In this document: positions 2,257-28,270 of the stretch, piece by piece | How the letters are laid out: the number at the start of each line of letters is the position of its first letter | Position numbering within the stretch: position 1 is the first letter of the stretch | Assembly (NCBI GenBank): GCA_013349585.1 | Contig: DUZG01000015.1 | Span: forward strand, 1 to 34,199 | Origin: Nitrospinota bacterium | Lineage (GTDB): Bacteria > Nitrospinota > Nitrospinia > Nitrospinales > VA-1 | DNA length: 34,199 nucleotides | Direction of reading: 5' to 3' | Notes under the pieces: model-generated | What the model saw: only the letters and a program-made list of their open reading frames with translations | Databases searched by the model: none | What the model was told of the DNA's origin: nothing | Translations under genes and position numbers: made by a program

Positions 2257-2312
2257 ATGAAAAAATATTAGGGAACAAACGTAAAACCTAAAAAACCCGA
2301 AAAAGGCAAACC

Positions 2313-3539: not shown

Positions 3540-3561
3540 ACAAACTCTACGAAGGAAAATT

Positions 3562-3978: not shown

Positions 3979-4465
3979 GCAATACGCTCTAGGAAAAGAC
4001 GGTTTCACTTTATTAGAATTGATACTTGTTCTCTTCCTGATGGGACTGATGGCAGGAATTGTTTTGCCGTTTGTGGTTTCAACTCTTGATCGCGTTAAAC
4101 TACAATCGGAGGCCCGACAAATTTCCTCTGCGTTGCAATTTGCGCGTAGCGAGGCTATCACAAAAAAAACATTATTCACCTTCAATGCCGATATCGATAA
4201 AAATCAATACTGGCTCGCTATCCCAAAAGAGAAAGAAGTCACACAAACAAAAATCCTTGATGAAACAGTACGAATAATGAACTACCAAGGATCAGAGGAA
4301 ACCGTATCTGACGGAACATTTATTATAAATTTTTATCCGCGCGGCAATTCGAGTGCCGGAACTATCCACCTGCAATCATCCATCGCCGAAAGCGATGCAC
4401 TTGTTTATGCAATCACCATCGATCCTATTACAGGAAAACCCAGAATCAAGCTCCTTGAAGAATGA
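3953..4465 (+). CDS. gspH: Minor pseudopilin GspH
   Basis: A prepilin of 164-170 residues with mature start FTLLELILVLFLMGLMAG (Glu at +5), followed by the GspH pattern RVKLQSEARQISSALQFARSEAI and a beta-rich C-terminal domain. The start is uncertain. The TTG at 3953 has the purine-rich GGAGAAGGGA about 12 bases upstream, while the TTG at 3971 overlaps the gspG stop and gives an 11-residue leader (KDG before Phe). No in-frame ATG is available. GspH is one of the tip or near-tip pseudopilins. Its 3' end overlaps the start of gspI. Confidence 0.9.
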   Translation: MSVGKTLNKQYALGKDGFTLLELILVLFLMGLMAGIVLPFVVSTLDRVKLQSEARQISSALQFARSEAITKKTLFTFNADIDKNQYWLAIPKEKEVTQTKILDETVRIMNYQGSEETVSDGTFIINFYPRGNSSAGTIHLQSSIAESDALVYAITIDPITGKPRIKLLEE

Positions 4466-5033
4466 GCAGGGGTTCTCTCTCCTCGAAGTCGTTGTTGCTC
4501 TGATGATAATGGCGGGGGGATTTCTCGCTGTTCTCAACCTGTTTTCAGGAAGCGTACGTTCTGTAGATTTTTCAGGCCAATACCTCAAAGGCGTCACTCT
4601 GGCAAATTCGAAAATGAACGAACTGGAAATACAAAACTTCACATTCGAAGACAATTCTGGGAATTTTAAAAACGAAGAAAATTATCGCTGGGAAATTGAT
4701 ATCTCTCCCTACGAGTCAGTCTTGAATAACGAGAAATCGGGGATTCAATTGCAGAAAATTTTATTAAAAGTTTTATGGAACGATGATGGGCATACTCGCA
4801 ATATTGAACTAGCAACACTGCGCCTGAAAGGCCAAACCTATCCGGCAGCCAACACACGATTGGAACAGTTATTTTCTGGGGGAGCAGGCAGAAGTAACAC
4901 AGATGGGGAAGAAGAAATCGTGCCTCCTGAAACTTCTACGCCAAGCACAGGTTCAGGTACAAGAGCAAACATTTGTGGTTCCAGTCAATCCAATATCAGT
5001 GGGTCGGGAACGCAGAATCTTTCAGGGAACTAA
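4455..5033 (+). CDS. gspI: Minor pseudopilin GspI
   Basis: The predicted product is 192 residues with a very short leader, MKNEQG, then mature FSLLEVVVALMIMAGGFLAVL; short leaders of this form are typical of GspI. The frame is open back to 4353 inside gspH, but the TTG at 4455 overlaps the gspH stop (4463-4465) and gives the canonical leader. The segment ANSKMNELEIQ matches the GspI family pattern after the helix. The last 45 residues are rich in Ser, Thr, Gly and Pro and look like a disordered tail, longer than usual for this family. GspI forms the pseudopilus tip with GspJ and GspK, whose genes follow directly. Confidence 0.9.
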   Translation: MKNEQGFSLLEVVVALMIMAGGFLAVLNLFSGSVRSVDFSGQYLKGVTLANSKMNELEIQNFTFEDNSGNFKNEENYRWEIDISPYESVLNNEKSGIQLQKILLKVLWNDDGHTRNIELATLRLKGQTYPAANTRLEQLFSGGAGRSNTDGEEEIVPPETSTPSTGSGTRANICGSSQSNISGSGTQNLSGN

Positions 5034-5902
5034 TGAGTCCAATAACAAATCGCATTTCAAAAAACCAATCTGGATTCACCCTGCTTGAACTGATCCTTTC
5101 TCTAGCTATTGTCGGGATTATTATTGCACTGGGACTCGGCGGTATCCGCTTAGGAATTAGCGCACGCGATGTCGGAGAAAGAAAGGTCGACACCTATCAG
5201 CGTCTGCGCATTATCACCGAACAACTCACGCAAAAACTACAATCTACTTATCCCGTTTTCGTGACTCAAAAAGATGGTAGCGCTATCGCACAAAGCCTTT
5301 CTTCTTCTAAAAGAATTATGGCATTTGAAGGTGAATCGAATTCATTAAGGTTTGTAACTTTTGCTTCACCGATAACATCACAAGGCTCCCAGGTTCACGA
5401 AGTTAAATTTTATTTAGGCAAGCACCCTGAAACTGATAAGTCGGGTCTTATTCTAATGGAGAAAGATATTTCAAAAGGTGATATTTTCTCTCGGATAGTC
5501 CCCAACAACGAAACCACACGTTATTATTTACTTGCTGAAAATGTTACTCAATTGAAGTTCAGATACTACGAAATGAAAAAAAATCAGCCTCAAGAACTGG
5601 AAGATGCTCATAGCAGTCCGACTCACAAAGGAAAATGGGTAAACAGAGTTGTTATGGATCCATTTCTAATCAACCAAAAAGTGCCAACAAACCCAATTCT
5701 CGCTTTCGAAAAAAACAATAAAATTTCCTTACCGCGAGCGGTTGAAATAACCCTTGGCATTAACCCAAAAGTGAATGAAAACAACGAGGATAATGAGGAA
5801 GAACCTGAATTATTTTTTTCGCCGCCTATTGTAGTTTTGATCAACTCTGGAATGGAAATTGCAATCCCTGAGAAGAAGGAAGAAGACAATGAAAAAGCTT
5901 AA
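5033..5902 (+). CDS. gspJ: Minor pseudopilin GspJ
   Basis: This 289-residue protein has a 14-residue leader ending NQSG, then FTLLELILSLAIVGIIIALGLGG with Glu at +5. The body has the GspJ signatures RLRIITEQLTQKLQS, SLRFVTFAS, YYLLAENVTQLKFRYYE and PRAVEITLGI near the C-terminus. The ATG at 5033 shares its A with the gspI stop (TAATG), which suggests translational coupling; an in-frame extension to 4973 inside gspI has no support. The protein is longer than many GspJ proteins (about 200 residues), partly because of an acidic stretch rich in Glu and Asn near residues 250-265. Confidence 0.92.
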   Translation: MSPITNRISKNQSGFTLLELILSLAIVGIIIALGLGGIRLGISARDVGERKVDTYQRLRIITEQLTQKLQSTYPVFVTQKDGSAIAQSLSSSKRIMAFEGESNSLRFVTFASPITSQGSQVHEVKFYLGKHPETDKSGLILMEKDISKGDIFSRIVPNNETTRYYLLAENVTQLKFRYYEMKKNQPQELEDAHSSPTHKGKWVNRVVMDPFLINQKVPTNPILAFEKNNKISLPRAVEITLGINPKVNENNEDNEEEPELFFSPPIVVLINSGMEIAIPEKKEEDNEKA

Positions 5903-6920
5903 AGATAACCAGCAAGGTATTGCCCTTATGGCTGTGCTGTGGGTTCTGGTCTTATTGATAGCTTTAGCTACCGAATTTGCCTTTTCAATGAAAATGGAGG
6001 TCAACACTACCCGAAACTACAAAGAAGACACAGAAAGCTATTATTTATCCCGAGCAGGCCTCAATCTAGCTCTGGCAGAACTTTTTAAAGAGGCCAGTTT
6101 CCACTCTATACATGACGAACATGGTTGGATTACCGGGAACATTATACAGACTTCTGCCAAAATCAAACCCAACCAATCCCCTGGACAGGAAGAATCGGAT
6201 GCAGAACAGACTCCAGGTCAAGAGGAATTAGAGGAAGAAGGAGCAGTTCAAGATTTTGACATCGTCAACAGAACCGACATCGAACTGGAAAATGGCAGCA
6301 TCACCTACACCATTAGAGATGAAAACGGGAAAATTTCCATTAATTCAGCAAGCAAAAATACTCTGGACAAGCTTCTTCAGGTTTCAGGGGTTGAAGACAA
6401 AAGCGAAAGGAGCACCATTTCAGATTCCATACTCGACTGGATCGACACCGATAAAAACCACCGACTCAATGGAGCCGAAGATGATTATTACCGGACACAA
6501 AGTCCATCCTATTACACCAAGAACGGGCCTATAGAAACAATCGATGAACTTTTGAAAATACGCGGCATCACTGAAGAAATTCTTTATGGTTCTGAGGAAA
6601 GCAATGACGAGAATAAAAAAACAGGGATTGCGAACCACCTCACAGTTTATAAAATTTCCACAGTGAATCCCAATACGGCGAGCGAAGAAGTATTAAAAAT
6701 TTTATTCCAACCAGAGCAGACAAAAAAAATTTTGGAAAACAGAAATAGTAAAGGATTCCACTCTAACACGCTGTCCAACTTTTTCCACATCACTTCTACA
6801 GGAAAAATAACTGGCAGTCGTACAGAGCATACGGTGAAAGCAATAGTAGAAAAGAGCATCTCAGGCAACAAAGCAAAAATGGTAATTCATTACTGGAATG
6901 ACAACGTGCTGAACTTATGA
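5889..6920 (+). CDS. gspK: Pseudopilus tip protein GspK
   Basis: This 343-residue protein starts with a 10-residue leader (NQQG), then IALMAVLWVLVLLIALATEF. Position +5 lacks the Glu seen in the other pseudopilins, which is the known mark of GspK, the tip subunit. The periplasmic part has the GspK pattern SRAGLNLALAEL, DENGKISINSAS, a helix-hairpin-helix-like VSGVEDKSERSTISDSILDW, and a second one near STVNPNTASEEVLKIL. An acidic Glu/Gln-rich insert lies near residues 95-120. The ATG at 5889 has a strong purine-rich ribosome site at about 5870-5885 and overlaps the end of gspJ by 14 bases. Confidence 0.93.
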   Translation: MKKLKDNQQGIALMAVLWVLVLLIALATEFAFSMKMEVNTTRNYKEDTESYYLSRAGLNLALAELFKEASFHSIHDEHGWITGNIIQTSAKIKPNQSPGQEESDAEQTPGQEELEEEGAVQDFDIVNRTDIELENGSITYTIRDENGKISINSASKNTLDKLLQVSGVEDKSERSTISDSILDWIDTDKNHRLNGAEDDYYRTQSPSYYTKNGPIETIDELLKIRGITEEILYGSEESNDENKKTGIANHLTVYKISTVNPNTASEEVLKILFQPEQTKKILENRNSKGFHSNTLSNFFHITSTGKITGSRTEHTVKAIVEKSISGNKAKMVIHYWNDNVLNL

Positions 6921-8395
6921 AACCTATCTATTTAGATAAATCTTTAGGACTCGATATCCGCGAAGATTCCATCAGCCTCGCACTAATCGGGAGAAAGCTG
7001 CGCCTTGCCGAAGTGCTCGCCGGTAAATTCATAGACTTAAAATTGCTAACAGGAAAAGACGAAAAAGCAGAGAAGTATTTCCTGGATCAAGTTAATCGGT
7101 TTCTGGTTGAACAAAATACCTGGCCCGAGTCCGTCATAGTGAGTCTACCAAGAAGTTTCGTTATGTTTAAAACATTTGAGCTCCCGGCACCAGACATGAA
7201 AGCTGCTCAAGCAATGGTAGAGTTTGAGTTGGAACGGCATTTTTCATCGGGCTTGAATGATTTGTACTACACCTACCAACTCAATCAAAAATCCGGGAAT
7301 ATTTTTCACATCGCCTCTGCGGCAATTAAAAAAGATACCGCCAACTATTACCTCGAACTCATCAAGAAGCTAAACTTAAAAACCACTGTTCTCGACATCT
7401 CAACATTCGCCAATAGCAATCTTGCTCTGCTACAAGAACCTAAGGATTCTGCTGTAACTGCATTGATCGACATCAGCCCACGTGCTCTAGAAATCGTCCT
7501 GATTAAAAAAGGTGTTATAGAGTTCTCTAGAAATAGAAGCTGGAAAAATACAGATATAAAGGACATATACTCAGAGAAAGACAAATCACTTGGTCTACTC
7601 GATAGCCTTTCTGAGTCCACTACCAAATTAATAATCAGCGAATTGGAGAAAGCACTTTCTTCATGTCGGAATATTGAAGAAAATGAATCAATTGATCATA
7701 TTTTCATATCAGGAGGTGGCACGTTGGCACCCCAAGTCATCAAACAACTTGAAAAAGAAACGCAGGTGTCGACGCAATTTATAAGTATTCCCGGTTCGGT
7801 TTCCCCTTCCCTGCCCGAGTCTTTTTCAAATTATCATATGATGACGGCTTTGAGCTTAGCCATAAGAGATTCCAGGAAAACAAATTTTGAAACCAATTTA
7901 CTACCCCAAAATCTGCGACCAAAAAGGAGAAAAGCAAATCCAAAAACGTCTCTCGCTTTGGCAGTAATCTTGTTACTTTGCCTTGCAGGATGGATCGGCA
8001 GCCAAATACATCACAACAACAAAACACTGGCATCATTAAACGGTCAATTAGATGAGATAAAGGGTGAAGTCTCTAACCTGGAAAAGGTCGATCTAGAATA
8101 TATTTCAATCCAGCAGTATGTAAATATCCTCAACACAATCAATAAACAGCACCCACCCAAGCTTCCTCTTTTGGGCAGGTTGAGCCAGTCACTCCCCAAA
8201 GACACGTGGTTGACAAACATAAAGTTCCACAAGGGTGAAATGGAAATAAAAGGCTTTTCGCCTTCCGCTTCAACATTAATTCCTCTCATCGAAAAATTAC
8301 CTAGCTTTAAGAAAACAGGTTTTGTCGGCACAATACTAAGAGAACCTACAGGCGAGAAGTTTACGATTCGAGCAAAATTGGAATCCAGCTCATGA
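6917..8395 (+). CDS. gspL: GspL-like assembly protein (PilM-type and PilN-type domains fused)
   Basis: This 492-residue protein overlaps gspK by ATGA. Residues 1-330 have the actin-like PilM/GspL cytoplasmic fold (LGLDIREDSISLALI near the start, VIVSLPRSFVMFKTFELP, ISGGGTLAPQV). A single membrane segment lies at about 345-365, followed by a coiled-coil stretch and a periplasmic ferredoxin-like PilN domain with LPKDTWLTNIKFHKGEMEIKG split over residues about 430-460. In type II systems GspL bridges GspE to the membrane platform through GspM. The sequence resembles the PilM-PilN arrangement as much as classical enterobacterial GspL, but the position between gspK and the gspM-like gene supports the call. 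Confidence 0.88.
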   Translation: MKPIYLDKSLGLDIREDSISLALIGRKLRLAEVLAGKFIDLKLLTGKDEKAEKYFLDQVNRFLVEQNTWPESVIVSLPRSFVMFKTFELPAPDMKAAQAMVEFELERHFSSGLNDLYYTYQLNQKSGNIFHIASAAIKKDTANYYLELIKKLNLKTTVLDISTFANSNLALLQEPKDSAVTALIDISPRALEIVLIKKGVIEFSRNRSWKNTDIKDIYSEKDKSLGLLDSLSESTTKLIISELEKALSSCRNIEENESIDHIFISGGGTLAPQVIKQLEKETQVSTQFISIPGSVSPSLPESFSNYHMMTALSLAIRDSRKTNFETNLLPQNLRPKRRKANPKTSLALAVILLLCLAGWIGSQIHHNNKTLASLNGQLDEIKGEVSNLEKVDLEYISIQQYVNILNTINKQHPPKLPLLGRLSQSLPKDTWLTNIKFHKGEMEIKGFSPSASTLIPLIEKLPSFKKTGFVGTILREPTGEKFTIRAKLESSS

Positions 8396-8970
8396 CGTTA
8401 AACATTGGAAAAAGAGATAAGGATTTTCTGGTTGGCGGTGGAGTTTTTTTAGCCTGCTACCTGCTTTTTTTTTTAGTGGCGGAACCCATTTATAATAAAC
8501 AGATAAGCATTGACGGAAAGATAAAGGACAAAATAAACTTCATTGAAAAATACTACGAAGTCATGAATCAGACTTCCTACTATCAGGCAAAAGAAGCAGC
8601 AAATAAGAATACTAAAATAACTCTACAAAAACGGTTTTTCAGCGATAAAGAACCGGGGCTTGCCGCAGCAAGCTTGCAAAAACTTTTACAAGTATTCTCA
8701 AGAGGTGCCGTAACCATTGAAAAAACTCGAGTGGAAAAACCAAAATACGTTGCAAGAATACTCGCTGTCCCTGTTGAAATCACAGTTCGTTCCAGCCTAA
8801 AAAACTTGGCTCTATTTTTAATGCGGATTGAAAACCATGAAAAATTTTTAGTCATTGAAGAACTTCGATCACGAAGAATAAATAAAAAGGAACCAGAAGA
8901 CCTTCAAACACGCCTATTGATCACTGGCTTTATAAAGGAACTGGAACCAAAAAGCGGAAAACCAATATGA
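8392..8970 (+). CDS. gspM: GspM/PilO-like inner-membrane assembly protein
   Basis: The 192-residue product has one N-terminal membrane segment (about residues 12-32, FLVGGGVFLACYLLFFLVAE), a coiled-coil stretch, and a periplasmic ferredoxin-like domain with alternating strands (VPVEITVRSSLKNLALFLMRIEN, then FLVIEELRSRRI). This is the GspM/PilO architecture; sequence conservation in the family is low, so the call leans on architecture and on position between gspL and gspD. It overlaps the gspL stop by ATGA and its own end overlaps the gspD start by ATGA, so the three are probably co-translated. GspM would pair with GspL in the inner membrane. Confidence 0.82.
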   Translation: MTLNIGKRDKDFLVGGGVFLACYLLFFLVAEPIYNKQISIDGKIKDKINFIEKYYEVMNQTSYYQAKEAANKNTKITLQKRFFSDKEPGLAAASLQKLLQVFSRGAVTIEKTRVEKPKYVARILAVPVEITVRSSLKNLALFLMRIENHEKFLVIEELRSRRINKKEPEDLQTRLLITGFIKELEPKSGKPI

Positions 8971-11411
8971 AAAATAATATTCTCGTCACAGTCTTAATAT
9001 CTTTATCCCTTCTTTTGCCAGGGTGTAGCTTCAATAAAAAGTCAACTATGGATCGATTGAAAAAAAAATCGGATTCTGTCGAGGCCATGAAGTTCCCGGA
9101 AAAAGAGTCTCCATCCGGGTTACAAGATGTAGAGCTTATTGACAATAAAAAACTGAAACAAATCAAACCGCAACAGGAAGCTAAAAAAATCCGCGTAACA
9201 GGAACTAAGGTTTCCTTACGCCGAGGACCTGGACCAAAATACATAAAAATTGGTAATGCGGTAAAAGGCGATGAGTTCGAACTGGTTCGAATTGAGCGAG
9301 GCTTTGACAATGGCAGGACCTGGTACCTCGTTCGTGACAATCTGGGGAACAAGTTTTTTATTGCAAAAAGCTTGACCTCTATCGTCAAAAAAGCGCCGAC
9401 AGCTATCCCCGCTGAGTCTCCTATGTCTCCAAAAGAGGGTACTAATAAAGTTGAAAAAGTGGAACTCCAAAAAAAGCAGGATGCGTCCCTGGGTCAGATT
9501 CAAACTCTGGTAGACGTAGAACCCAAGCTCCCTGAGGAGCTTCTTGAGGCCAAGCATATTACTCTGAACTTTGAGGGAACTGAACTTTACGATGTCATCA
9601 CAACGTTTTGCGAATTGCTGAAAATTGACTATGTAATTGAAGGAAGCGTTGAAGGTAAAGTCACACTACAGACTTTCAATAAAATCCCAGTTGAAGACTT
9701 ATATTCCGTGCTCGAGCAGATTCTCGCGTTAAATAATGTTGCTGTTGTAAAAAGTGGGAACTTTTATCGTTTTCTACAAGCACCTGATGCCGCAAAGAAA
9801 CCGTTAAGTATTCATTATGGCAATGATCCTAATATCCCTGACAAGGAGCGGATGATCATACAGATCGTGCCTCTACGATACATCTCGGTCGAGTCCATGA
9901 AAAAAATTATCAGTCCGTTGTTGACGACCAATGCAAGTTTCATAGAAATACCCGAGACTAATAATCTGATGATGATAGAAATGGCCTACAACGTGAAACG
10001 TATCATCAAAGTTGTACAGGCCTTGGATATTGACAAGCTAGCTTCATCAGATATTCAGCTTTATAAACTACGAAATGCTGATTCGGAAACGATGGTCAAG
10101 GAACTTGAGGAAATTTTTACATCCATGGGATATAAAGAAGCTCTTGGCGATTCACTCTCTTTCCTTTCACTCACCCGTCTCAATTCCGTCTTGGTTGTAA
10201 ATGCTTTTGATAAAATTTTACCGACAATAGAGTTTTGGGTGAACCGACTCGACCAACCTGTTTCCGAAGGAGAGGTAAGTACCTTTGTCTACTATGTTCA
10301 AAATGGCGATGCTTCAGCTTTGTCCGGCTTGCTGAATGATATTTTCACTGGAGAAGGCACGTCGGATACAGGGAATACTTCTTCCACTCTGAAAACCAAT
10401 ACGGCAAAGGCAAATATATCAGGAGCAACAACTCCCGCATCAACCAGTGAACCCCGCCCAAATCTTGAGCTAACTGGCGGCATCAGTGATGACATTGAGG
10501 GGAAAATTACTATCATCCCCGATCCAGACACCAATTCTCTGATAATTCGGACGAGTCCCAGAAACTACCCCGCTATTTTGTCACTTATCAACAAACTTGA
10601 TCTATTTCCACAGCAGGTATTAATTGAAGTGCTCATTGTTGATCTTTCCGTGGATGAGACAACGAAAATTGGCGTTGATTGGGCAGCGAAAGGTACCGCC
10701 GGGTCTACCACCGTGCAAGGAGGTGCAAATCAAGCTACTACCACAGGTACCCTCGGCGATTCCATCGGCACAGCCACCGCTTCATTCCTACAAGGTGGAA
10801 GCTTCATTATTGGCGACCCTGAAAAAGTCATTGCCCAGTTGCAAATTTTTGCATCCGACTCGAAAGCTAACATACTTGCGAACCCCATACTTGTGACAGC
10901 TGACAATAAAGCAGCAAACATATCTATTACCGATGAAATTCCTATAGTGCAGGAGGCATCAACACCATCTGGTGGTGGCGCGGTTGTTACCAGTTCCGTA
11001 GAGTACCGTAGCGTTGGAATCAAACTAAATATTACACCAAATATCAACTCCGATAACTACGTCAATCTGAAAATCCAACAGGAAATTTCCAGCCGCGGTG
11101 TTGATGTAGGAAATCAGCCTTCTTTCAACACCCGCGAGGTCAATACCGAAGTGACCTTGAAAGATAATCAGGTTCTTATAATGGGTGGATTAATGCGAAC
11201 TGACTCAACGGATACAATTTCTGGTGTACCCTTCCTAAAAGATCTGCCTCTTGTTGGAAAATTGTTTGGTTCAGAATCGACCACTCTCAAAAAAACCGAG
11301 TTGATGATTTTCATTACCCCACATGTAATTTCTAACAAGGAAGACTCACAATTTGTGACCCGTCAATTCAAAAATCGGTTGCGCGGACTGAAAAAAAGAA
11401 GTCGTTCCTAA
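8967..11411 (+). CDS. gspD: Type II secretion secretin GspD with an SH3-like domain
   Basis: This 814-residue outer-membrane channel subunit has a lipoprotein signal with lipobox LLPGC (Cys20). Residues about 75-135 match bacterial SH3 domains (VSLRRGPGPKYIKIG, then WYLVRDNLGNKFFIA), which is not standard in GspD. The N0 domain starts near 190 (LNFEGTELYDVITTFCELL), followed by N1-N3 repeats with a Ser/Thr/Asn-rich loop near 470-500. The secretin core starts near 550 (QQVLIEVLIVDLS) and ends with VNTEVTLKDNQVLIMGGL, VPFLKDLPLVGKLF and LMIFITPHVI. A lipidated secretin can reach the outer membrane without a separate pilotin. It is the last gene of the operon, unlike the usual gspC-gspD-gspE order. 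Confidence 0.95.
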   Translation: MKNNILVTVLISLSLLLPGCSFNKKSTMDRLKKKSDSVEAMKFPEKESPSGLQDVELIDNKKLKQIKPQQEAKKIRVTGTKVSLRRGPGPKYIKIGNAVKGDEFELVRIERGFDNGRTWYLVRDNLGNKFFIAKSLTSIVKKAPTAIPAESPMSPKEGTNKVEKVELQKKQDASLGQIQTLVDVEPKLPEELLEAKHITLNFEGTELYDVITTFCELLKIDYVIEGSVEGKVTLQTFNKIPVEDLYSVLEQILALNNVAVVKSGNFYRFLQAPDAAKKPLSIHYGNDPNIPDKERMIIQIVPLRYISVESMKKIISPLLTTNASFIEIPETNNLMMIEMAYNVKRIIKVVQALDIDKLASSDIQLYKLRNADSETMVKELEEIFTSMGYKEALGDSLSFLSLTRLNSVLVVNAFDKILPTIEFWVNRLDQPVSEGEVSTFVYYVQNGDASALSGLLNDIFTGEGTSDTGNTSSTLKTNTAKANISGATTPASTSEPRPNLELTGGISDDIEGKITIIPDPDTNSLIIRTSPRNYPAILSLINKLDLFPQQVLIEVLIVDLSVDETTKIGVDWAAKGTAGSTTVQGGANQATTTGTLGDSIGTATASFLQGGSFIIGDPEKVIAQLQIFASDSKANILANPILVTADNKAANISITDEIPIVQEASTPSGGGAVVTSSVEYRSVGIKLNITPNINSDNYVNLKIQQEISSRGVDVGNQPSFNTREVNTEVTLKDNQVLIMGGLMRTDSTDTISGVPFLKDLPLVGKLFGSESTTLKKTELMIFITPHVISNKEDSQFVTRQFKNRLRGLKKRSRS

Positions 11412-11666: not shown

Positions 11667-12584
11667 ATGAATATGACTAAATCCAAATTTGTTAATAGTT
11701 TAGAGTTGATCGGTGATACTCCTTTAGTTAAACTAAATAGCGTTGTCCCAAAAAACGGTGCCAATATTTTTGCAAAAATGGAGTTTTTCAATCCAGGAGG
11801 CAGCGTAAAAGACCGTATCGCTCTAGCTATGATAGAAGATGCTGAAAAAAAGGGCTTTTTGAAGCCGGGTTCAACAATAATTGAGCCTACTAGTGGAAAT
11901 ACTGGTATCGGCCTTGCCCTAGTAGGTGCGGTTAAGGGCTACAATGTTGTATTGGTCATGTCCGAGAACATGAGCGCTGATAGAAGAATGATTCTGGAAA
12001 GTTTTGGGGCTAAAACAGAGCTAAGTCGAGCTGAGTTTGGTATGGAAGGAACGATTGAAAAAGCTGAAGAGATATTGGCAAAAAATCCAGATTTTTTCAT
12101 GCCGCAACAGTTTAATAACCCGGCTAATCCGGAAGTCCACAGGAAAACAACCGCGCCAGAAATAATTGCGGCAATGAATGGAGAACCAATTGATAGTTTT
12201 GTTGCAGGAATTGGAACAGGTGGAACTATAACAGGTGTAGGAGAAGTATTAAAACAGCATTATGGGGAAGTCAAAATAGTAGGAGTAGAACCTGCCACCT
12301 CGGCGGTTCTATCAGGAAAACCAGCTGGCCCCCACAAAATCCAGGGAATTGGAGCCGGCTTTAAACCAAATGTCCTGAACTTTGAACTATTAGATCGAAT
12401 TTTACCCGTTTCTGATGAGGACGCCTTTCGATTTGCAAAGAGACTTGGTAAAGAAGAGGGCTTTATTGTTGGTAGTTCTTCTGGAGCTGCATGTTTTGCA
12501 GCCAATGAAGTAGCCAAAGAATTAGGACCTAAAAAAAATGTGGTTGTGGTTTTACCTTGCAGGCGAGCTCTTTTTGAAGCTTAA
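11667..12584 (+). CDS. cysK: Cysteine synthase (O-acetylserine sulfhydrylase type)
   Basis: This 305-residue fold-type II PLP enzyme would make cysteine from an activated serine and sulfide. It has DTPLVKL near the start, the PLP lysine Lys48 in GGSVKDR, the phosphate and substrate loop TSGNTG at 75-80, QFNNPANPEVH, the glycine-rich phosphate loop GTGGTITG, and VGSSSGAA near the C-terminus. A second ATG two codons in is possible. The last residues read LPCRRALFEA where the family normally has LPDxGERY; the DNA there looks like a short out-of-frame stretch flanked by two small indels (see findings). The gene lies 88 bases before the threonine-synthase-like gene and opens the sulfur cluster. 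O-phosphoserine as substrate cannot be excluded. Confidence 0.9.
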   Translation: MNMTKSKFVNSLELIGDTPLVKLNSVVPKNGANIFAKMEFFNPGGSVKDRIALAMIEDAEKKGFLKPGSTIIEPTSGNTGIGLALVGAVKGYNVVLVMSENMSADRRMILESFGAKTELSRAEFGMEGTIEKAEEILAKNPDFFMPQQFNNPANPEVHRKTTAPEIIAAMNGEPIDSFVAGIGTGGTITGVGEVLKQHYGEVKIVGVEPATSAVLSGKPAGPHKIQGIGAGFKPNVLNFELLDRILPVSDEDAFRFAKRLGKEEGFIVGSSSGAACFAANEVAKELGPKKNVVVVLPCRRALFEA

Positions 12585-12672
12585 CCTAGAAATTTTAGAT
12601 ATAAAAAGTTACTACTAAAATACCTCTAATTATAATTATTATTTTTCTGCAATAAACTAAGGAAATGCTTGA

Positions 12673-13911
12673 ATGGGTTATGTGAAAGGTTTGATCTGCA
12701 AAGAATGCAAGAAAGAATACCCTAAAGAACCAATTCATGTGTGTGAGTATTGCTTTGGTCCTCTTGAATGTAATTACGACTATGAAGAAATAAAAAAGGT
12801 AGTCAGCAAAAAATCTATCGAAGCTGGTCCTCCAACAATGTGGCGCTATAAAGACCTACTTCCCATTGATGAAAATCCAAAAGTGGGTCTGAATACTGGC
12901 TTCACCCCATTAGTGCGAGCAAAAAATCTGGGTAAAGCCCTGGGAATAAACAATCTTTATATAAAAAATGACAGTGTCAATCATCCTACATTTTCCTTCA
13001 AAGACCGGGTGGTCGCAGTAGCGGTTTCAAAAGCTATCGAGTTTGGATTCGACACCATCTCCTGCGCTTCAACGGGAAATCTGGCAAACTCGGTTGCCGC
13101 ACACGCTGCAGAGGCGGGATTAAAAAGCGTGATTTTTATTCCTGATGGATTGGAAGCAGGAAAAATTCTAGGCACATTAATTTATGGAACGCAGTTGATA
13201 GCGGTTAAGGGGAGTTACGATGATGTCAACCGTTTATGCAGTGAAATTGCCGTCAACCATAAATGGGCTTTTGTAAATATTAATATTCGTCCCTATTATG
13301 GAGATGGTTCCAAATCATACGGTTATGAAATTGCCGAACAATTGGGGTGGAAAACTCCAGACAATGTTGTTGTTCCCGTTGCTGGCAGTTCGCTGATCAC
13401 AAAAATATGGAAAGCATTTCACGAATTCGAAATGCTTGGACTGATCGACAAGGTACAGAGTAAAATTTTTGCGGCACAGGCCACCGGGTGTTCACCCGTT
13501 ACGACTGCAATCAAAAATGGCAGTGAAAACATTACTCCTGTAAAACCCAATACCATTGCCAAGTCAATCGCAATTGGCAATCCCGCTGATGGCTATTATG
13601 GAATTAAAACGGCCAACACAAGTGGCGGCTACGGCGAAGATATTAATGATGAAGAGATAGTCAAGTCGATGAAGCTGCTTGCAGAAACAGAAGGCATATT
13701 TACAGAAACCGCTGGCGGCGTGACGGTAGGGGTTACCAAAAAATTAGTCAAACAAGGACGCATTAAACCCGATGAGACTACAGTAATATGTATCACCGGG
13801 AATGGACTTAAAACCCAGGAAGCCCTGGACGGCTGTTTTGATGCTCCGACTGTGATAGAACCTAAAGTAAATAATTTTGAAGATTTTTTTGCAAACAGTT
13901 TAACGGTTTAA
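12673..13911 (+). CDS. thrC: Threonine synthase (or a sulfur-carrier-linked paralogue)
   Basis: This 412-residue fold-type II PLP enzyme has an N-terminal zinc ribbon (Cys9, Cys12, Cys24, Cys27), a feature of one threonine synthase subgroup. PLP Lys110 lies in FSFKDR, ASTGNLANSVAAHAA is the serine-like phosphate loop, and PVAGSSLITK and ETAGGVTVGV follow. Threonine synthase converts O-phosphohomoserine to threonine. The ATG at 12673 is preceded by AAGGAAA. The gene is followed by a sulfur carrier protein gene after only 12 bases, so it may be a paralogue that uses an O-phospho amino acid and protein-bound sulfur (as in homocysteine or cysteine formation) rather than water. That alternative is an inference from position only. 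Confidence 0.85.
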   Translation: MGYVKGLICKECKKEYPKEPIHVCEYCFGPLECNYDYEEIKKVVSKKSIEAGPPTMWRYKDLLPIDENPKVGLNTGFTPLVRAKNLGKALGINNLYIKNDSVNHPTFSFKDRVVAVAVSKAIEFGFDTISCASTGNLANSVAAHAAEAGLKSVIFIPDGLEAGKILGTLIYGTQLIAVKGSYDDVNRLCSEIAVNHKWAFVNINIRPYYGDGSKSYGYEIAEQLGWKTPDNVVVPVAGSSLITKIWKAFHEFEMLGLIDKVQSKIFAAQATGCSPVTTAIKNGSENITPVKPNTIAKSIAIGNPADGYYGIKTANTSGGYGEDINDEEIVKSMKLLAETEGIFTETAGGVTVGVTKKLVKQGRIKPDETTVICITGNGLKTQEALDGCFDAPTVIEPKVNNFEDFFANSLTV

Positions 13912-13923
13912 AAGGAGTAAAGA

Positions 13924-14205
13924 ATGGCTGTAAAAGTAAGAGTACCCACCCCATTGATGAAATTGACCGACAACAAAAGTGAAGTAACTGCTGACGGTTC
14001 CAACATCACTGAAATTCTCAACAACCTTGAGTCACAATTTGCAGGCATTAAAGAAAGGATCTGTGAAGAAAATGGCTCTCCAAGAAGGTTCATCAATATT
14101 TATCTCAACGAAGACGATATCCGTTTTCTTGATGGAGAAAAAACTGCTGTAAAAGACGGTGATGAAATTTCAATTATTCCTGCTATCGCGGGTGGAACTA
14201 ACTGA
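13924..14205 (+). CDS. ThiS/MoaD/CysO-type sulfur carrier protein with a GGTN tail
   Basis: This 93-residue ubiquitin-fold protein has the family strands VKVRVPTPLMKL, a helix SNITEILNNLESQF, RRFINIYLNEDDI, and the end GDEISIIPAIAGG-TN. The length and the INIYLNEDDIR segment fit CysO/MoaD-type carriers better than ThiS (about 66 residues). Carriers work as C-terminal Gly-Gly thiocarboxylates; here two residues (Thr-Asn) follow the Gly-Gly, so activation would need removal of the tail. The ATG has AAGGAG 7 bases upstream. The stop overlaps the start of the E1-like gene (TGATG), so carrier and activator are coupled. Its likely job is delivering sulfur to the neighbouring PLP enzymes. Confidence 0.9.
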   Translation: MAVKVRVPTPLMKLTDNKSEVTADGSNITEILNNLESQFAGIKERICEENGSPRRFINIYLNEDDIRFLDGEKTAVKDGDEISIIPAIAGGTN

Positions 14206-15011
14206 TGTTCGACTTTTCCGATGAGCAGGTTGAACGATACAGCCGCCATATCATCCTCCCCGAAGTAGGAGGCGAAGGCCAGAGTAAACTTCTAGAGTCC
14301 AAGGTACTACTTGTTGGTGCCGGTGGGCTAGGCTCGCCCGCTGCTTACTATCTTGCCGCAGCGGGAATCGGCAATATGGGCATCATCGATTTTGATACGG
14401 TTGATCTTAGTAACCTGCAAAGACAGATCATCCATAACACCGAGCGCATAGGCATGCTCAAAACTGAGTCTGCAAAGAAAACCATTGAAGCCCTAAATCC
14501 CGATGTCAATGTCACTGTATTCAATGAAAAAGTAACTTCAGAAAATATCATGCGCCTGTTTGAAGGCTATGACTACATATTGGATGGCACCGATAATTTT
14601 GCCACACGTTACCTCATCAATGATGCTTGTGTATTGACCAGAAAAACCAATATTCATGGCAGTATTTACCGGTTTGAAGGTCAGGTAACAGTATTCAAAC
14701 CAAATGATGGCCCCTGTTATCGCTGTTTATACCCTGAACCACCACCCCCTGGCCTTGTGCCCAATTGTCAAGAAGGCGGTGTACTTGGTGTTTTAGCAGG
14801 CATCATTGGCAACCTGCAAGTTGTTGAAACTTTGAAGCTCATTTTAGGTCAAGGAGAAACACTGGTTGGGTCTTTGCTCTTATACGACGCGTTAAAGACC
14901 GAATTTAGAAAATTAAAACTTAAAAGAGATCCAAAATGTCCTATCTGTAGCGATAAACCCACGATCACCGAACTGATCGATTACGAAGAGTTCTGTGGAC
15001 TGTCGCGCTGA
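14205..15011 (+). CDS. moeB: MoeB/ThiF-type sulfur carrier adenylyltransferase
   Basis: This 268-residue E1-like enzyme would adenylate the C-terminus of the carrier encoded just upstream. It has YSRHIILPEVGGEGQ at the start, the nucleotide loop VGAGGLGSPAA (about 32-42), DFDTVDLSNLQRQ, the DGTDNFATRYLINDA segment, and a structural zinc site with Cys171, Cys174, Cys245 and Cys248. Cys188 in NCQEGGVLG is the family's conserved loop cysteine. It ends without the C-terminal rhodanese domain found in MOCS3 and MoeZ, so the sulfur donor must be another protein. Overlap with the carrier stop indicates a dedicated pair; molybdopterin or thiamin roles are possible but no genes of those pathways are nearby. 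Confidence 0.92.
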   Translation: MFDFSDEQVERYSRHIILPEVGGEGQSKLLESKVLLVGAGGLGSPAAYYLAAAGIGNMGIIDFDTVDLSNLQRQIIHNTERIGMLKTESAKKTIEALNPDVNVTVFNEKVTSENIMRLFEGYDYILDGTDNFATRYLINDACVLTRKTNIHGSIYRFEGQVTVFKPNDGPCYRCLYPEPPPPGLVPNCQEGGVLGVLAGIIGNLQVVETLKLILGQGETLVGSLLLYDALKTEFRKLKLKRDPKCPICSDKPTITELIDYEEFCGLSR

Positions 15012-15028
15012 TAAAAACTTTTAAACTC

Positions 15029-15075
15029 ACCCATTGTCTCAGTAAAATGTTCAGGACAATGGGTTAAATTTTTTC
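15029..15075 (+). terminator. Hairpin with T-run between moeB and the second cysteine synthase
   Basis: A perfect 10-base stem, ACCCATTGTC (15029-15038) and GACAATGGGT (15055-15064), encloses a 16-base loop and is followed by TAAATTTTTTC. This has the form of an intrinsic terminator. It ends only 13 bases before the next start codon, so it may act as an attenuator that lowers expression of the downstream gene, or the downstream gene may have another promoter. Confidence 0.6.
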
Positions 15076-15087
15076 TGAAATAATTAT

Positions 15088-16083
15088 ATGTCATCAAAAC
15101 CACTGGGCTTTCCAATTCCCTTTGAGGTGCAGGCTCCTACTTGCCCAGTTATTACCGATAATTCGGTATTAGACGCCATTGGAAATACCCCTTTAATTCG
15201 CATTCATAACGTCGGCAAAGAATATAAGAATGTTGATATTTATGCCAAGGCCGAATGGAAGAATGCTGGTGGCTCAGTGAAATCGCGTCCCGCCCTCAAA
15301 ATGATCGAGGACGGAGAAAAATCCGGAAAGCTGACCAAAGATAAAATTATCCTCGACTCCACATCTGGCAACACCGGTATCTCCTACGCACTAATAGGAA
15401 AAGTCAAAGGCTATAAAGTCAAACTCGTCATGCCAGCCAACGTCTGCAAAGAAAGAAAAGGTCTGATGGCTGAATTTTATGGTGCCGAAATCGTCACGTC
15501 CAGCCCATTTGAAGGTTCCGATGGTGCGATCATACTCGCCCGTGAGATTTATGAAAAAAATCCCGATAAGTATTTCATGCCAGACCAATATAACAACGAT
15601 TCCAACTGGAAAGCCCATTACGAAACCACTGCTCAGGAAATCTGGAAACAAACAAATAATCGTGTCACCCATTTTCTTGCTGGAATCGGAACAGGCGGAA
15701 CAATTATGGGAACCAGCCGCGGCCTACGTGACCTCAACCCCGATATTAAATGCTACGCCGTTGAACCGGCAGAATCTTTACATGGACTCGAAGGACTTAA
15801 GCATATGGAATCATCCATCGTTCCCGGAATTTATAAGGAAGAAGAGCTAGAGGGCAAAATCAGTGTCCCAACTGAAGAAGCATACGACATGGTGGAGACA
15901 CTGGAAAAGCAAGAAGGCATCCTTGTCGGCCATTCATCCGCAGGGGCTTTGGTGGGCGTTCTCAAACTTGCGGCAACAATCGAAAGTGGAGTGATTGTTA
16001 CCGTGTTCCCCGATAGCTGCGAAAGATGCTACGTCAATTTTGGACAGTTCAAAAATACAGCCAAAACAAACCTACCCATATAA
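15088..16083 (+). CDS. Cysteine-synthase-like PLP enzyme (CysM/CysK family)
   Basis: This 331-residue fold-type II PLP enzyme starts with about 23 extra residues (PFEVQAPTCPVI) before the usual DAIGNTPLIRI. PLP Lys65 lies in GGSVKSRPAL, where the family usually has KDR; TSGNTG is at 92-97, DQYNNDSNWKAHYETT follows, then GTGGTIMG and GHSSAGALVG. The C-terminal motif is PDSCERCYVNF, with two cysteines where DSGERY is usual. Its position after a carrier and its activator recalls the CysO-CysM system of mycobacteria, in which CysM takes O-phosphoserine and carrier thiocarboxylate. No clear ribosome site precedes the ATG at 15088, and a hairpin lies just upstream. Substrate choice is inferred from context. 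Confidence 0.85.
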   Translation: MSSKPLGFPIPFEVQAPTCPVITDNSVLDAIGNTPLIRIHNVGKEYKNVDIYAKAEWKNAGGSVKSRPALKMIEDGEKSGKLTKDKIILDSTSGNTGISYALIGKVKGYKVKLVMPANVCKERKGLMAEFYGAEIVTSSPFEGSDGAIILAREIYEKNPDKYFMPDQYNNDSNWKAHYETTAQEIWKQTNNRVTHFLAGIGTGGTIMGTSRGLRDLNPDIKCYAVEPAESLHGLEGLKHMESSIVPGIYKEEELEGKISVPTEEAYDMVETLEKQEGILVGHSSAGALVGVLKLAATIESGVIVTVFPDSCERCYVNFGQFKNTAKTNLPI

Positions 16084-25503: not shown

Positions 25504-25896
25504 ATGGATTCATTTTTTGAAAAGGAATATGAAAACTTAAACGATGCCATCTTAAAGGCTATTGTTTCTTCTAAAGAAGTACAAAAAATACTTGTAAAGC
25601 TTAAGGAGCAAGAAGAGATCGACAATATGGCAGTTTTAAACCTTTTCCTCAGCCTGGATGAGTTGTACGAAATGATTTCCGAAAAGGACAATAATTCCAT
25701 CTCATATAAACTAGAGCCTGTGGAATCGAAACAATCTTCGAGTAAAGAAACCAGAAAAGAAATTCCCTCACCTCTCAAAAGTGGAAATATTATCGATGGA
25801 AAAACATTGACCTTAAACGAGACGCTTTTTGAGAATTTCTATCAAGGGAGATTTAACGAGGATACCTGGGTAATGAAGGCGCGCATCCGGCTATAA
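25504..25896 (+). CDS. Small unrecognised acidic protein
   Basis: The 130-residue product is not recognised. Residues 1-60 look alpha-helical and charged (EKEYENLNDAILKAI, then VQKILVKLKEQEEIDNMAVLNLF), followed by a Ser/Lys/Glu-rich linker and a C-terminal stretch ending FNEDTWVMKARIRL. There is no signal or membrane segment. The ATG has AGGGAG about 10 bases upstream, which supports translation. It stands alone between divergent and convergent neighbours. Confidence 0.65.
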   Translation: MDSFFEKEYENLNDAILKAIVSSKEVQKILVKLKEQEEIDNMAVLNLFLSLDELYEMISEKDNNSISYKLEPVESKQSSSKETRKEIPSPLKSGNIIDGKTLTLNETLFENFYQGRFNEDTWVMKARIRL

Positions 25897-25920: not shown

Positions 25921-26103
25921 CTAATTTTTGAATATTTTGGAATCGCAAGAGATATATTTTATCTGTTTTAATGGAACAACGAAAATTTCATCGGCAGTGG
26001 TAACTTCAAACAACTCCAAGTCATCACTGAAACCATGCTTTTCCGTTGTTTCCAATACAAGTTCCTGCCCATCAACAAATACAATTTTTAATCTGTACTG
26101 CAT
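25921..26103 (-). CDS. Small unrecognised beta-rich protein
   Basis: The 60-residue product reads as alternating strands (YRLKIVFVDGQELVLETTE, then ELFEVTTADEIFVVPLKQIKYIS), the pattern of a small beta-barrel; the ending VPLKQIKYI is reminiscent of short Sm-like or PilZ-like domains, but I cannot name the family. I chose the ATG at 26103 because AAAGGG lies 7 bases upstream; a GTG at 26133 would add 10 residues with no ribosome site. It lies downstream of the radical SAM gene, 61 bases away on the same strand, and may be the last gene of that unit. Confidence 0.6.
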   Translation of the reverse strand: MQYRLKIVFVDGQELVLETTEKHGFSDDLELFEVTTADEIFVVPLKQIKYISCDSKIFKN

Positions 26104-26164: not shown

Positions 26165-27376
26165 TCAATTAGGATGAGGCACACTCTCAAATTTTTTCGA
26201 CAAAGGATTATTAAGATAATCCTCAACGTAGTTCTTCAAGTATCCCTTTTCATACAGTTTTTTATTTGAAAGTGCCGAGTTTATCTTGTGAAGCACTTTA
26301 AAACGAACTCTTGGAAACTGCTCTTTAAATTCATCAAATGACTTTCCGGAAATATCTCTCTCATCATTTGAGGACTTTTCCATTATAACCTGAGGCAAGT
26401 GAATCACTCTCTGATTGGTAATCCTCTTCGCCACATCATCAAAAGTAAGCAGGGTTGTGCAATTCGAATCCCCTCCCAAGGTGTCATTAGGAACATACAG
26501 AAAACGTGCGCGCCCTCGTCTAAACAAGGTTAAAATTCTATGGACGTTTCCTGCCATAACAATCCAGTCCTTTTTCTCCAGCTCACAGGCATCAAAGGTT
26601 TTGATAATTTTATTCCTGTTTAAAAAAGCGGTGATGTCTGACTCGGTGTGAATCATTTGCACATTTGGCAAATTCATATCATAAATTCTCCGGGCTTCAT
26701 CAGGCAAAAACCTTTTCCCTTGTCGCATCACTTTAGTTGTATCAGCATCGATATATTTCAAGGGAGTAAGACACCCCATCCAAAGCAAACAGTCTTTATT
26801 GATATCTGAAATTTTCTTTGCATCCTGAGCCATAGACCCGGGACCAAAGGAGTAAAAATTGGCAGAGGTCACAGCTGGCCCATCCAGAACTGCCAGCACC
26901 TGTTTGACTGAAGGCCCTTTAGGCATTAATTGTTCCCGGTAAGAACCCAGGGTAATTACCGACAATTCGAAATTGATACGGCCGGGGTATTTTTCAGCAA
27001 GTCGATTGATCCTCGATGGGTCAAAATAGCCCACCGAAAACATGGTGATTTTCTTATCCGTTTTCGCCAGAAACTCTTCAATCCAATCCATCGCTTTCGG
27101 GTGAAGAGCAAGGTCTGTCCATTCCATGTACTCATTGCCACCCAGGATCCAAGATTCCGATTCACGGGTCGGAAAGGCTTGGATTTCTTTGAATATAAAT
27201 TCCCAATGCTCCTGCGTGGTCAAGGGAGTCTCAAAAGTCTTGCGGTAGCTATGATCCATCTCATAGCAAAAGGTACATTTTACAGGACAGGTTTTTCCGA
27301 GACTCAGGGGAATTTTTCTATCCTTTATTTCTTTTCGAAAAACACTATATAGAAACTCCTGGTCTTTGATCGACAT
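26165..27376 (-). CDS. Radical SAM protein of unknown substrate
   Basis: This 403-residue protein has the radical SAM motif Cys30-x3-Cys34-x2-Cys37 (CPVKCTFCY) close to its N-terminus. A partial TIM barrel follows, with WILGGNEYMEW in the place of the GGE motif and FELSVITLGSYREQLMP further on. The C-terminal half has more cysteines (DCLLWMGC, DACE, SNC), possible ligands of a second cluster, and a segment VPNDTLGGDSNCTTLLTFDD that faintly resembles the end of DUF512-type radical SAM proteins, without their PDZ part. Function is unknown. It is 4 bases after the small TPR-like gene, so the two are co-transcribed and may work together. Confidence 0.85.
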   Translation of the reverse strand: MSIKDQEFLYSVFRKEIKDRKIPLSLGKTCPVKCTFCYEMDHSYRKTFETPLTTQEHWEFIFKEIQAFPTRESESWILGGNEYMEWTDLALHPKAMDWIEEFLAKTDKKITMFSVGYFDPSRINRLAEKYPGRINFELSVITLGSYREQLMPKGPSVKQVLAVLDGPAVTSANFYSFGPGSMAQDAKKISDINKDCLLWMGCLTPLKYIDADTTKVMRQGKRFLPDEARRIYDMNLPNVQMIHTESDITAFLNRNKIIKTFDACELEKKDWIVMAGNVHRILTLFRRGRARFLYVPNDTLGGDSNCTTLLTFDDVAKRITNQRVIHLPQVIMEKSSNDERDISGKSFDEFKEQFPRVRFKVLHKINSALSNKKLYEKGYLKNYVEDYLNNPLSKKFESVPHPN

Positions 27377-27380
27377 ATCT

Positions 27381-27710
27381 CTACCAGTCCTTAAAGGCGT
27401 TCGTCAATGAATCATCAATGGGCACTTCTTGTTTTTGATCTTCATCCAAGCCATGAATCATTTCATTAAGATGTACCGCCGCACAACCCATATAGGCAAT
27501 GCTTTCCTGCTGCAGCTTAAAGTTCCCCCCTTTTAGCTTTGTCTCAAGCTCACTTATATGCTTTTCATCAAAGGGGTGTATCATTGCAGATTTTTTAAAA
27601 GCTGCAATGGCCTCTTTAAAGTTTTTACCTTCATGCTCGTTTATACCTGTTCTCAGACTATCCTGAGCATCTCGTACTTCATCAACTGTTATAGGGTATT
27701 TTTCTGTCAT
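27381..27710 (-). CDS. Small TPR-like protein paired with the radical SAM gene
   Basis: This 109-residue cytoplasmic protein has a tetratricopeptide-like helical pair (DAQDSLRTGINEHEGKNF, then KEAIAAFKKSAMIHPFDEKH), followed by a helix with AYMGCAAVHLNEMIHG and an acidic end. The ATG at 27710 has an excellent GAGGAAGGAA ribosome site; the frame runs on to 27815 but the extra residues lack support. TPR pairs usually bind partner proteins, and the 4-base gap to the radical SAM gene suggests it is a partner or carrier for that enzyme. It is not a recognised peptide precursor. Confidence 0.8.
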   Translation of the reverse strand: MTEKYPITVDEVRDAQDSLRTGINEHEGKNFKEAIAAFKKSAMIHPFDEKHISELETKLKGGNFKLQQESIAYMGCAAVHLNEMIHGLDEDQKQEVPIDDSLTNAFKDW

Positions 27711-27855
27711 TTCCTTCCTCTCTTTTACTTCACAAACAAAAAGAAAAAGTTTGATCGGGAAAACAAACGGAGCCAAATCCCAGACCAAACCATCACTTTT
27801 TAATAATCCTGTCATATTCTTTTAATAATGCTGACTTGCTGTAAATTAAGCGACT

Positions 27856-27886
27856 ATTGTAGCATTCCTAGAACGGGAACTGTCAA
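27856..27886 (-). promoter_or_regulatory. Sigma-70-like promoter of the TPR/radical SAM pair
   Basis: Read on the minus strand, a perfect TTGACA (27886-27881) is followed by TACAAT (27861-27856) with a TGC extended -10 directly before it. The spacer is 19 bases, slightly long, which an extended -10 can offset. The leader to the ATG at 27710 would be about 140 bases. Confidence 0.6.
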
Positions 27887-28036: not shown

Positions 28037-28165
28037 TTAATGCTTTTCCTCAACACCCTCAGGTGCATACTGGTGACCTTCACCATTAAAATTTGACTCC
28101 ATCGAACAAGAAGACAAAACCAACACCAGCGAAACCCATATAAATGAAACTACCAACTTTTTCAT
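28037..28165 (-). CDS. Very small lipoprotein (42 residues)
   Basis: A short open frame codes for 42 residues with a textbook lipoprotein signal: basic start MKK, a hydrophobic core, and lipobox LSSC with Cys20. Ser at +2 would send it to the outer membrane under the Lol rule. The mature peptide is only 23 residues, hydrophilic and acidic (MESNFNGEGHQYAPEGVEEKH). The ATG is preceded by GAGGAGAGGG, a strong ribosome site, and a GC-rich terminator follows, so I regard it as a real gene despite its size. It is monocistronic and divergent from the biotin ligase gene. Such mini-lipoproteins are commonly of unknown function or resemble entericidin-type peptides. Confidence 0.8.
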   Translation of the reverse strand: MKKLVVSFIWVSLVLVLSSCSMESNFNGEGHQYAPEGVEEKH

Positions 28166-28270
28166 CCAGCCCTCTCCTCTCAAAAAGATTTAATCCCAGA
28201 CAGAATTATGCTTAGCTGGAATCACCGTATGCTTTTTTACCAATTTTTCCACAATAATTCAATCATTTTT

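Follow-up and report, generated by a model that had tools for sequence, protein, structure and literature searches.

The question raised by the locus described here is what a radical S-adenosylmethionine (SAM) protein does beside a small tetratricopeptide repeat (TPR)-like protein, behind a promoter of its own. The locus lies on contig DUZG01000015.1 (assembly GCA_013349585.1; contig 15 of a 2.02-Mb genome, 76% complete) of a Nitrospinota bacterium related to the organisms that chiefly oxidise nitrite in the ocean. The whole stretch of 34,199 nucleotides analysed is called the window below. An earlier note on the window had proposed the two genes as an undescribed two-protein system, with a 60-residue gene downstream as a possible third part. 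Our comparisons make it probable that the radical SAM gene codes for a cobalamin-dependent enzyme of class 2 (DUF512/Mmp10 type), which most likely methylates an unreactive carbon and has the 60-residue protein as its partner. The radical SAM gene was found in 59 of 100 relatives (58 of the 64 from the same order, 1 of the 13 from the rest of the class, none of the 23 beyond), and is therefore not a chance open reading frame (ORF). The six enzyme-less genomes of the order include incomplete metagenome-assembled genomes (MAGs).

The window protein itself matched no family at its curated cut-off in profile scans, Radical_SAM scoring 22 of the required 29.5 bits, and the earlier note was right to name no family. 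Sequence search yielded no solved relative, only an L-asparaginase (E-value = 0.66) that we read as chance. The DUF512 profile, which the note had suggested for a search, did provide a link: when 16 family members were scanned singly, 14 matched Radical_SAM and 11 matched DUF512 (best E-value = 2.9e-5), with a top DUF512 score of 23.9 bits against the Pfam cut-off of 25 (10 members scored). The DUF512 matches seen cover positions of about 110-200 of the 202 in the profile, i.e. its C-terminal half only. According to passages of its description, DUF512 was identified in 2024 as a C-terminal cobalamin-binding domain, and it binds cobalamin in four tested proteins (PMC11659888). Comparison of our family profile with nine PDZ-type DUF512 proteins by hhalign gave a probability of 96.8 (E-value = 2.8e-10), the alignment pairing the C-terminal block YVPNDTLGGDSNCTTLLTFDDVAKRI of the enzyme with the DUF512 block KVENRFFGPSVTVAGLLTGKDILKAI. 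By comparison, the protein has a radical SAM core bearing a single [4Fe-4S] motif and, after it, a C-terminal domain with homology to DUF512. We place the predicted enzyme in a separate, divergent family beside DUF512 and Mmp10, a relative rather than a member of Pfam DUF512, and predict that it performs cobalamin-dependent radical methylation. Titles and abstracts of papers retrieved on DUF512, on radical SAM proteins of Nitrospina and on cobalamin-dependent radical enzymes of Nitrospira mention nothing of this family, and no wider literature search was made for it.

A search with the predicted model of the enzyme by Foldseek returned eight matches at E-value ≤ 0.001, all of them pfDUF512 (9cg2, ranking first with 1.9e-7) and Mmp10 chains. 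In the VIA comparison Mmp10 aligned over model residues 18-366, including both domains (Z = 13.3, 306 residues, root-mean-square deviation (rmsd) 11.3, 12% identity), and pfDUF512 likewise over both (Z = 11.3, 274 residues, rmsd 11.8). A wrong angle between the two domains, together with poor loops, may account for the high rmsd. VIA alignments to NifB, SuiB, spore photoproduct lyase and others (Z = 11-13) run mainly over the radical SAM core, and were set aside as superfamily matches. The structure of csDUF512 (9cg1) was not among the VIA matches listed, which excludes nothing.

Residue conservation was assessed in 80 sequences, namely the window protein and 79 of the 80 loci described below (the partial L048 was left out). 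The motifs of the enzyme are CX3CX2C-Y at 30-38, GGNE at 79-82 and VPNxxLGGDSxCTTLLT at 295-311. The first contains the N-terminal Cys motif already noticed in the window, C30/C34/C37, and these three residues and Y38 are present in all 80 sequences. Passages on csDUF512 assign roles to an aromatic residue after the third Cys, to a Leu below the cobalt and to a Thr hydrogen-bonding the cobalamin tail (PMC11659888). L309, present in 80 of 80, aligns with the axial L366 of csDUF512 (numbering counted by hand). C306 (codon 26459-26461) is equally invariant; it precedes the axial Leu by three residues, stands in the place of a Val in csDUF512, and is possibly an unusual residue near the cobalt face. 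The extra cysteines pointed out in the C-terminal half do exist, but C306 alone is invariant after residue 37: C202 is kept in 72, C196 in 71 and C264 in 47 of the sequences (lost in 8, 9 and 33, respectively). At any position from 38 to 195 Cys occurs in at most 30 of 80 sequences (position 77 only). A second Fe-S cluster, for which the earlier note had left room, was rejected, since the 80 sequences hold no conserved second Cys motif.

The enzyme resembles DUF512 proteins (PF04459; csDUF512, 9CG1; pfDUF512, 9CG2) in having a radical SAM domain and then a C-terminal domain with a VxNxxxG...LLTxxD core, as well as in the axial Leu and the aromatic residue after the third Cys. Unlike them, it falls below the Pfam cut-off, has small companion proteins and was found in two phyla holding nitrite oxidisers. 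It carries no PDZ domain (no PDZ match; the Cys motif begins already at residue 30), as is described for pfDUF512 in the passages available; PDZ-type, csDUF512-like proteins differ from it in this N-terminal domain and in having a DDD motif instead of GGNE. A275 in place of the tail-binding Thr and the invariant C306 further distinguish it from csDUF512. With Mmp10, the B12-dependent arginine methylase of methyl-coenzyme M reductase, it shares the domain order, the overall predicted fold and a GG motif in the radical SAM core. It lacks, however, Mmp10's four iron-loop cysteines (C35, C38, C45, C48), and the identity is only 12%; the four-Cys iron loop after the cluster motif is given as an Mmp10 feature in passages of PMC8828468. 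SPASM/Twitch maturases are likewise radical SAM enzymes accompanied by a small partner protein; our enzyme differs from them by having no conserved auxiliary-cluster Cys set and only weak matches to such proteins.

A one-genome-per-species scan retrieved 112 related stretches, 80 of which were kept; all 80 records bear titles of the Nitrospinota/Nitrospinae/Nitrospina or Nitrospirota/Nitrospirae/Nitrospira type. The tree of the 80 enzyme sequences separates 47 Nitrospinota-type from 33 Nitrospirota-type rows with support of 100/100, and places the window enzyme next to Nitrospinaceae. Four records group against their titles: L067, titled Nitrospinota, falls with Nitrospirota, and L024, L045 and L046, titled Nitrospirae/Nitrospirota, fall with Nitrospinota. 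Many of the genomes analysed are fragmentary. In a survey of 387 genomes the enzyme was found in 60, with a single match (G565) among the 310 outside the class. This match, a fragment of 108 residues, sits at the end of a contig of 4.1 kb; it shares up to 81% identity with Nitrospinota sequences, has a TPR-gene match upstream and may be contamination. Among 295 Nitrospirota genomes, 57 carry the enzyme, a count that omits a spurious match in G246 (30 positions, E-value = 8e-4) and retains a 103-position fragment in G375. Nearly all finds of the family are from Nitrospinota and Nitrospirota, and many of these bacteria oxidise nitrite.

The earlier note's guess that the 60-residue gene is a third part was borne out. 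It lies downstream of the enzyme gene in 46 of the 47 Nitrospinota-type loci, at 33 to 509 nt, the exception being a contig end. It is present in 57 of the 59 enzyme-bearing Nitrospinota relatives; one of the two exceptions (G008) has only a radical SAM fragment, and the other (G026) matches L028, where only 9 nt of contig follow the gene. The 295 Nitrospirota genomes divide into 56 with both genes, 1 with the enzyme alone, 2 with the 60-residue gene alone and 236 with neither (a match in G297, E-value = 0.003, was not counted), so that 56 of 57 enzyme-bearing genomes carry it. Fisher's p for this pairing is 8.6e-57, which overstates it because the genomes are related. The two genes are adjacent in only one of the 56 paired genomes (G389); in 20 they share a contig but lie at least 24 kb apart, and in 35 they are on different contigs. 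The surroundings of the 60-residue gene in Nitrospirota (20 loci) form no stable operon, a ProC-like gene (recognised by eye) standing just upstream in 13. On a deep Nitrospirota branch (L059/L061/L062) the two genes are side by side; adjacency is therefore probably ancestral and the TPR gene a later addition in Nitrospinota.

The relation of the pair to nitrite oxidation was followed through NxrA, identified by its match to "Nitrite oxidoreductase subunit A" in PDB (7b04_B, 1706.9 bits). The count of 81 genomes with nitrite oxidoreductase (NXR) includes partial genes and leaves out 12 genomes whose relatives reach only 40-43% identity. Enzyme and NXR occur together in 47 of the 295 Nitrospirota genomes, the enzyme alone in 10, NXR alone in 34 and neither in 204. 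As 33 of the 34 NXR-only genomes also lack the 60-residue gene, strict coupling of the enzyme to NXR is rejected, and the enzyme is not part of nitrite oxidation itself. NxrA trees were built for the NXR genomes in which the gene is complete or almost so, 69 of the 81; the pair is present in 39 of these, both genes are missing from 29, and 1 has the 60-residue gene only. On these trees the joint presence of the pair changes 3 times with an outgroup or 5 times without, 3 changes being forced by well-supported branches in each. NxrA, which is multi-copy, serves here only as a proxy for the species phylogeny. Rooted on the Nitrospina outgroup or on G389, the joint changes read as losses. G391, the row that has the 60-residue gene but no enzyme, falls among enzyme-bearing rows; the assembly may therefore simply lack its enzyme gene. 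Among the 100 relatives NxrA was found in 31, in three of them (G064, G068, G099) only at 39-44% identity. Since no NxrA was found in enzyme-bearing genomes 96-97% complete (G017, G020, G047, G065), the gene is either often lost from MAGs or truly absent, a matter that this set cannot decide. Judged from co-inheritance, the 60-residue protein is a near-obligate core partner of the enzyme.

The predicted model of the 60-residue protein (predicted local distance difference test (pLDDT) 92.9) is a small barrel of five strands, as in Sm/Hfq and DUF903/YgdR proteins. Unlike these, it has no solid sequence-family match (12 members scanned), and neither a signal peptide nor a lipobox was seen by eye. 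The nearest fold matches, to DUF903/YgdR-type and Sm/Hfq barrels, are weak (best Foldseek E-value = 6e-3, VIA Z at most 6.9). Pfam ROF, which we take to be Sm-like, matched 3 of the 12 members (best 0.025). Columns invariant among the 47 aligned sequences include H23, S26, D28, E30, P44, Q47, K49, C53 and F58.

A neighbourhood survey supports the pairing with the TPR-like gene inside Nitrospinota, where this gene lies directly upstream of the enzyme in 46 of 47 loci. Contig ends leave two of these copies partial, and the remaining locus has no upstream DNA. The survey does not support this gene as the defining partner that the earlier note had taken it for: at E-value ≤ 1e-5 no match was found in any of the 57 enzyme-bearing Nitrospirota genomes, only 16 candidates being scored in genomes with many. 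The idea of an obligate TPR partner was rejected on this ground. Two matches in Nitrospirota (G234 and G384) are frames of 485 and 490 aa in genomes without the enzyme. One repeat can be read by eye; TPR_1/TPR_2 matched 6 of 12 members (TPR_1 best, 8e-4) and not the window protein itself. The profile of the 12 TPR-like sequences matches designed TPR chains (best 1.4e-16, a value summed over their many repeats). By its distribution, the TPR-like protein is a companion found only in Nitrospinota.

In the cobalamin-dependent scheme that we favour, one SAM would methylate the cobalamin, a second SAM would be cleaved at the cluster to give a 5'-deoxyadenosyl radical, and the methyl group would then pass from methylcobalamin to the unreactive carbon of the substrate. 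The enzyme would act with, or on, the 60-residue Sm-like protein, whose co-inheritance suggests a substrate or substrate adaptor; in Nitrospinota the TPR-like protein would accompany both, perhaps as a scaffold. A protein or peptide substrate is favoured because Mmp10, a characterised relative, methylates an Arg in a protein; it is the sole member of the class with a substrate given in the passages available, and that substrate is a protein (PMC11659888, PMC13331322, PMC8828468). More tentatively, and with some doubt on our part, the enzyme may methylate the 60-residue protein itself, or an RNA or protein held by it, as part of a B12-dependent modification system peculiar to Nitrospinota and Nitrospira-type bacteria; if the protein is the substrate, the two would be kept or lost together even though their genes lie apart. 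The available passages report that cultured Nitrospinae possess genes for B12 uptake and lack multiple genes for its synthesis (PMC8026999), and that Nitrospira marina requires external B12 (PMC8115632). The enzyme's cofactor would therefore be imported.

Several observations weigh against this scheme. The window protein has no DUF512 match at E-value ≤ 10 in hmmscan, no scored member attains the 25-bit cut-off, and several of the 11 matches are weak (E-value 0.05-0.08). The enzyme model reaches a pLDDT of only 70.5, with the cluster loop and the cobalamin loop below 50, and its Foldseek template modelling (TM) scores to 9cg2 and Mmp10 are 0.34-0.41 with rmsd of 12-15. The tail-binding Thr of csDUF512 aligns with A275, a column of 70 Ala, 9 Ser and 1 Gly; position 277 has 40 Asn and 40 Ser, and the alignment, at 21% identity, cannot fix the register of this Thr. 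Finally, the joint occurrence of two genes does not prove that their products touch or that one is the other's substrate, and the number of independent changes behind this pattern is small. The sub-threshold DUF512 score, the Ala column, the poorly modelled cobalamin loop and the invariant C306 would also suit a cobalamin-free radical SAM enzyme, descended from DUF512 proteins but no longer binding cobalamin; it would act by another chemistry on either a small molecule or a peptide, C306 being in its active site. We consider this unlikely, as the sequences do not vary at the axial Leu, at the aromatic residue following the third Cys or in the PN...LLT core, and as the structures that best match the model over its whole length are without exception cobalamin enzymes.

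The two other alternatives concern the partner. Both genes are confined to nearly the same two phyla and their presence changes so few times on the NxrA trees that they might mark the same clades without acting together. This appears quite unlikely to us: the same lineages keep NXR without the pair, the genes change together at least three times although they are almost never adjacent in Nitrospirota, and adjacency occurs in both phyla. The predicted Sm/Hfq-like fold and the ROF matches would alternatively fit an RNA-directed system, in which the 60-residue protein binds RNA and guides the enzyme to methylate it. The fold match is, however, weak and common to DUF903/YgdR lipoprotein domains, which are not known to bind RNA. 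The enzyme's relatives, in the passages available, modify protein or have no known substrate (PMC11659888, PMC13331322, PMC8828468), and we regard RNA guidance as improbable.

Transcription of the locus runs on the minus strand in the order promoter, TPR-like gene, 4 bases, radical SAM gene, 61 bases, 60-aa gene (Table 1). The 4-base spacing stated in the earlier note is confirmed (TPR-like stop codon at 27381-27383, radical SAM ATG at 27376-27374). So are the promoter, with TTGACA at 27886-27881, a 19-nt spacer and TACAAT at 27861-27856, and the ribosome site. Upstream regions were examined in the window and in 16 of the 46 Nitrospinota loci that have a TPR match; the pattern TTGAC-N16..21-TANNNT is present in 16 of these 17, L019 being the exception. 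A consensus promoter scan does not report the site, because the 19-nt spacer exceeds its allowed 16-18 nt, and finds no excess of promoter-like sites in the region (4 against 5.8 expected). The TPR-like ORF begins mechanically at 27815 (144 aa); in the alignment, however, its relatives start at the Met at 27710, which GAGAGGAAGGAAATG precedes, and the protein then has 109 aa. The three genes probably form one operon, co-transcribed from the conserved promoter.

Table 1. Features of the predicted operon in the window (positions are those of the window)
Feature	Position	Strand	Evidence
Promoter TTGACA-N19-TACAAT, TGC directly before the -10 element	27856-27886	-	Sequence; motif in relatives
Ribosome-binding site GAGGAAGGAA of the TPR-like gene	27711-27720	-	Sequence; alignment of relatives
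TPR-like protein, 109 aa: one TPR-like hairpin and a conserved C-terminal half	27381-27710	-	Nitrospinota loci; TPR_1/TPR_2 matches
Radical SAM protein, 403 aa	26165-27376	-	ORF and translation; DUF512 matches, hhalign, Foldseek
Its domains: radical SAM core, then DUF512/Mmp10-like, presumed cobalamin-binding C-terminal domain (about residues 245-363)			
60-residue Sm/Hfq-like small barrel protein	25921-26103	-	Adjacency, co-occurrence, model, weak fold matches

Upstream of the operon lies a gene for a putative small lipoprotein of 48 aa (28037-28183, minus strand; SSCS motif, by eye), found in 34 of the 47 Nitrospinota loci and followed by a terminator-like hairpin (28004-27984). Convergent with the 60-residue gene is a 130-aa protein (25504-25896, plus strand) that occupies the same place in 42 of 47 Nitrospinota loci; its sole match is a weak one to ABC-3C MC6 (0.01). 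Other neighbours were seen only in Nitrospirota loci. A second, class-1-like radical SAM gene lies upstream of the DUF512-like enzyme in 30 of 33 (e.g. L050:5469-7466), and the one such protein scanned has a B12-binding domain. In 28 of 33 (e.g. L057:7614-7859, minus strand) there is a small divergent protein, without Pfam match for the one scanned, that has a WHPHRYANLTNNPRKYMQMYKK block and a J-domain-like motif reading HPH instead of HPD. A PhzF-like gene follows the enzyme; these last two were named by inspection.

Elsewhere in the window, a type II secretion/type IV pilus-like operon (547-11411, plus strand) encodes GspE-, GspF-, pseudopilin-, GspK-, PilM/PilN- and GspM-like proteins and a secretin. 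Three pyridoxal phosphate-dependent PALP-fold enzymes (11667-16083, plus strand) surround a ThiS-like sulfur carrier (13924-14205) and a ThiF-like activating enzyme (14205-15011), in what looks like a cluster for sulfur-carrier-dependent cysteine/homocysteine synthesis. This cluster deserves attention because Nitrospira marina and Nitrospina gracilis are reported, in passages of PMC8115632, without known early methionine-synthesis enzymes.

Marine nitrite oxidisers are known to depend on B12, and the analysis predicts that they have a new enzyme requiring it. The 33 NXR-bearing Nitrospirota genomes without either gene show where the enzyme is dispensable. Its near-obligate 60-residue partner offers a concrete, small candidate substrate or adaptor for a relative of the DUF512/Mmp10 class. 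If the prediction is true, a DUF512-type enzyme would gain its partner, and a B12-dependent modification system would explain part of these nitrite oxidisers' need for B12.

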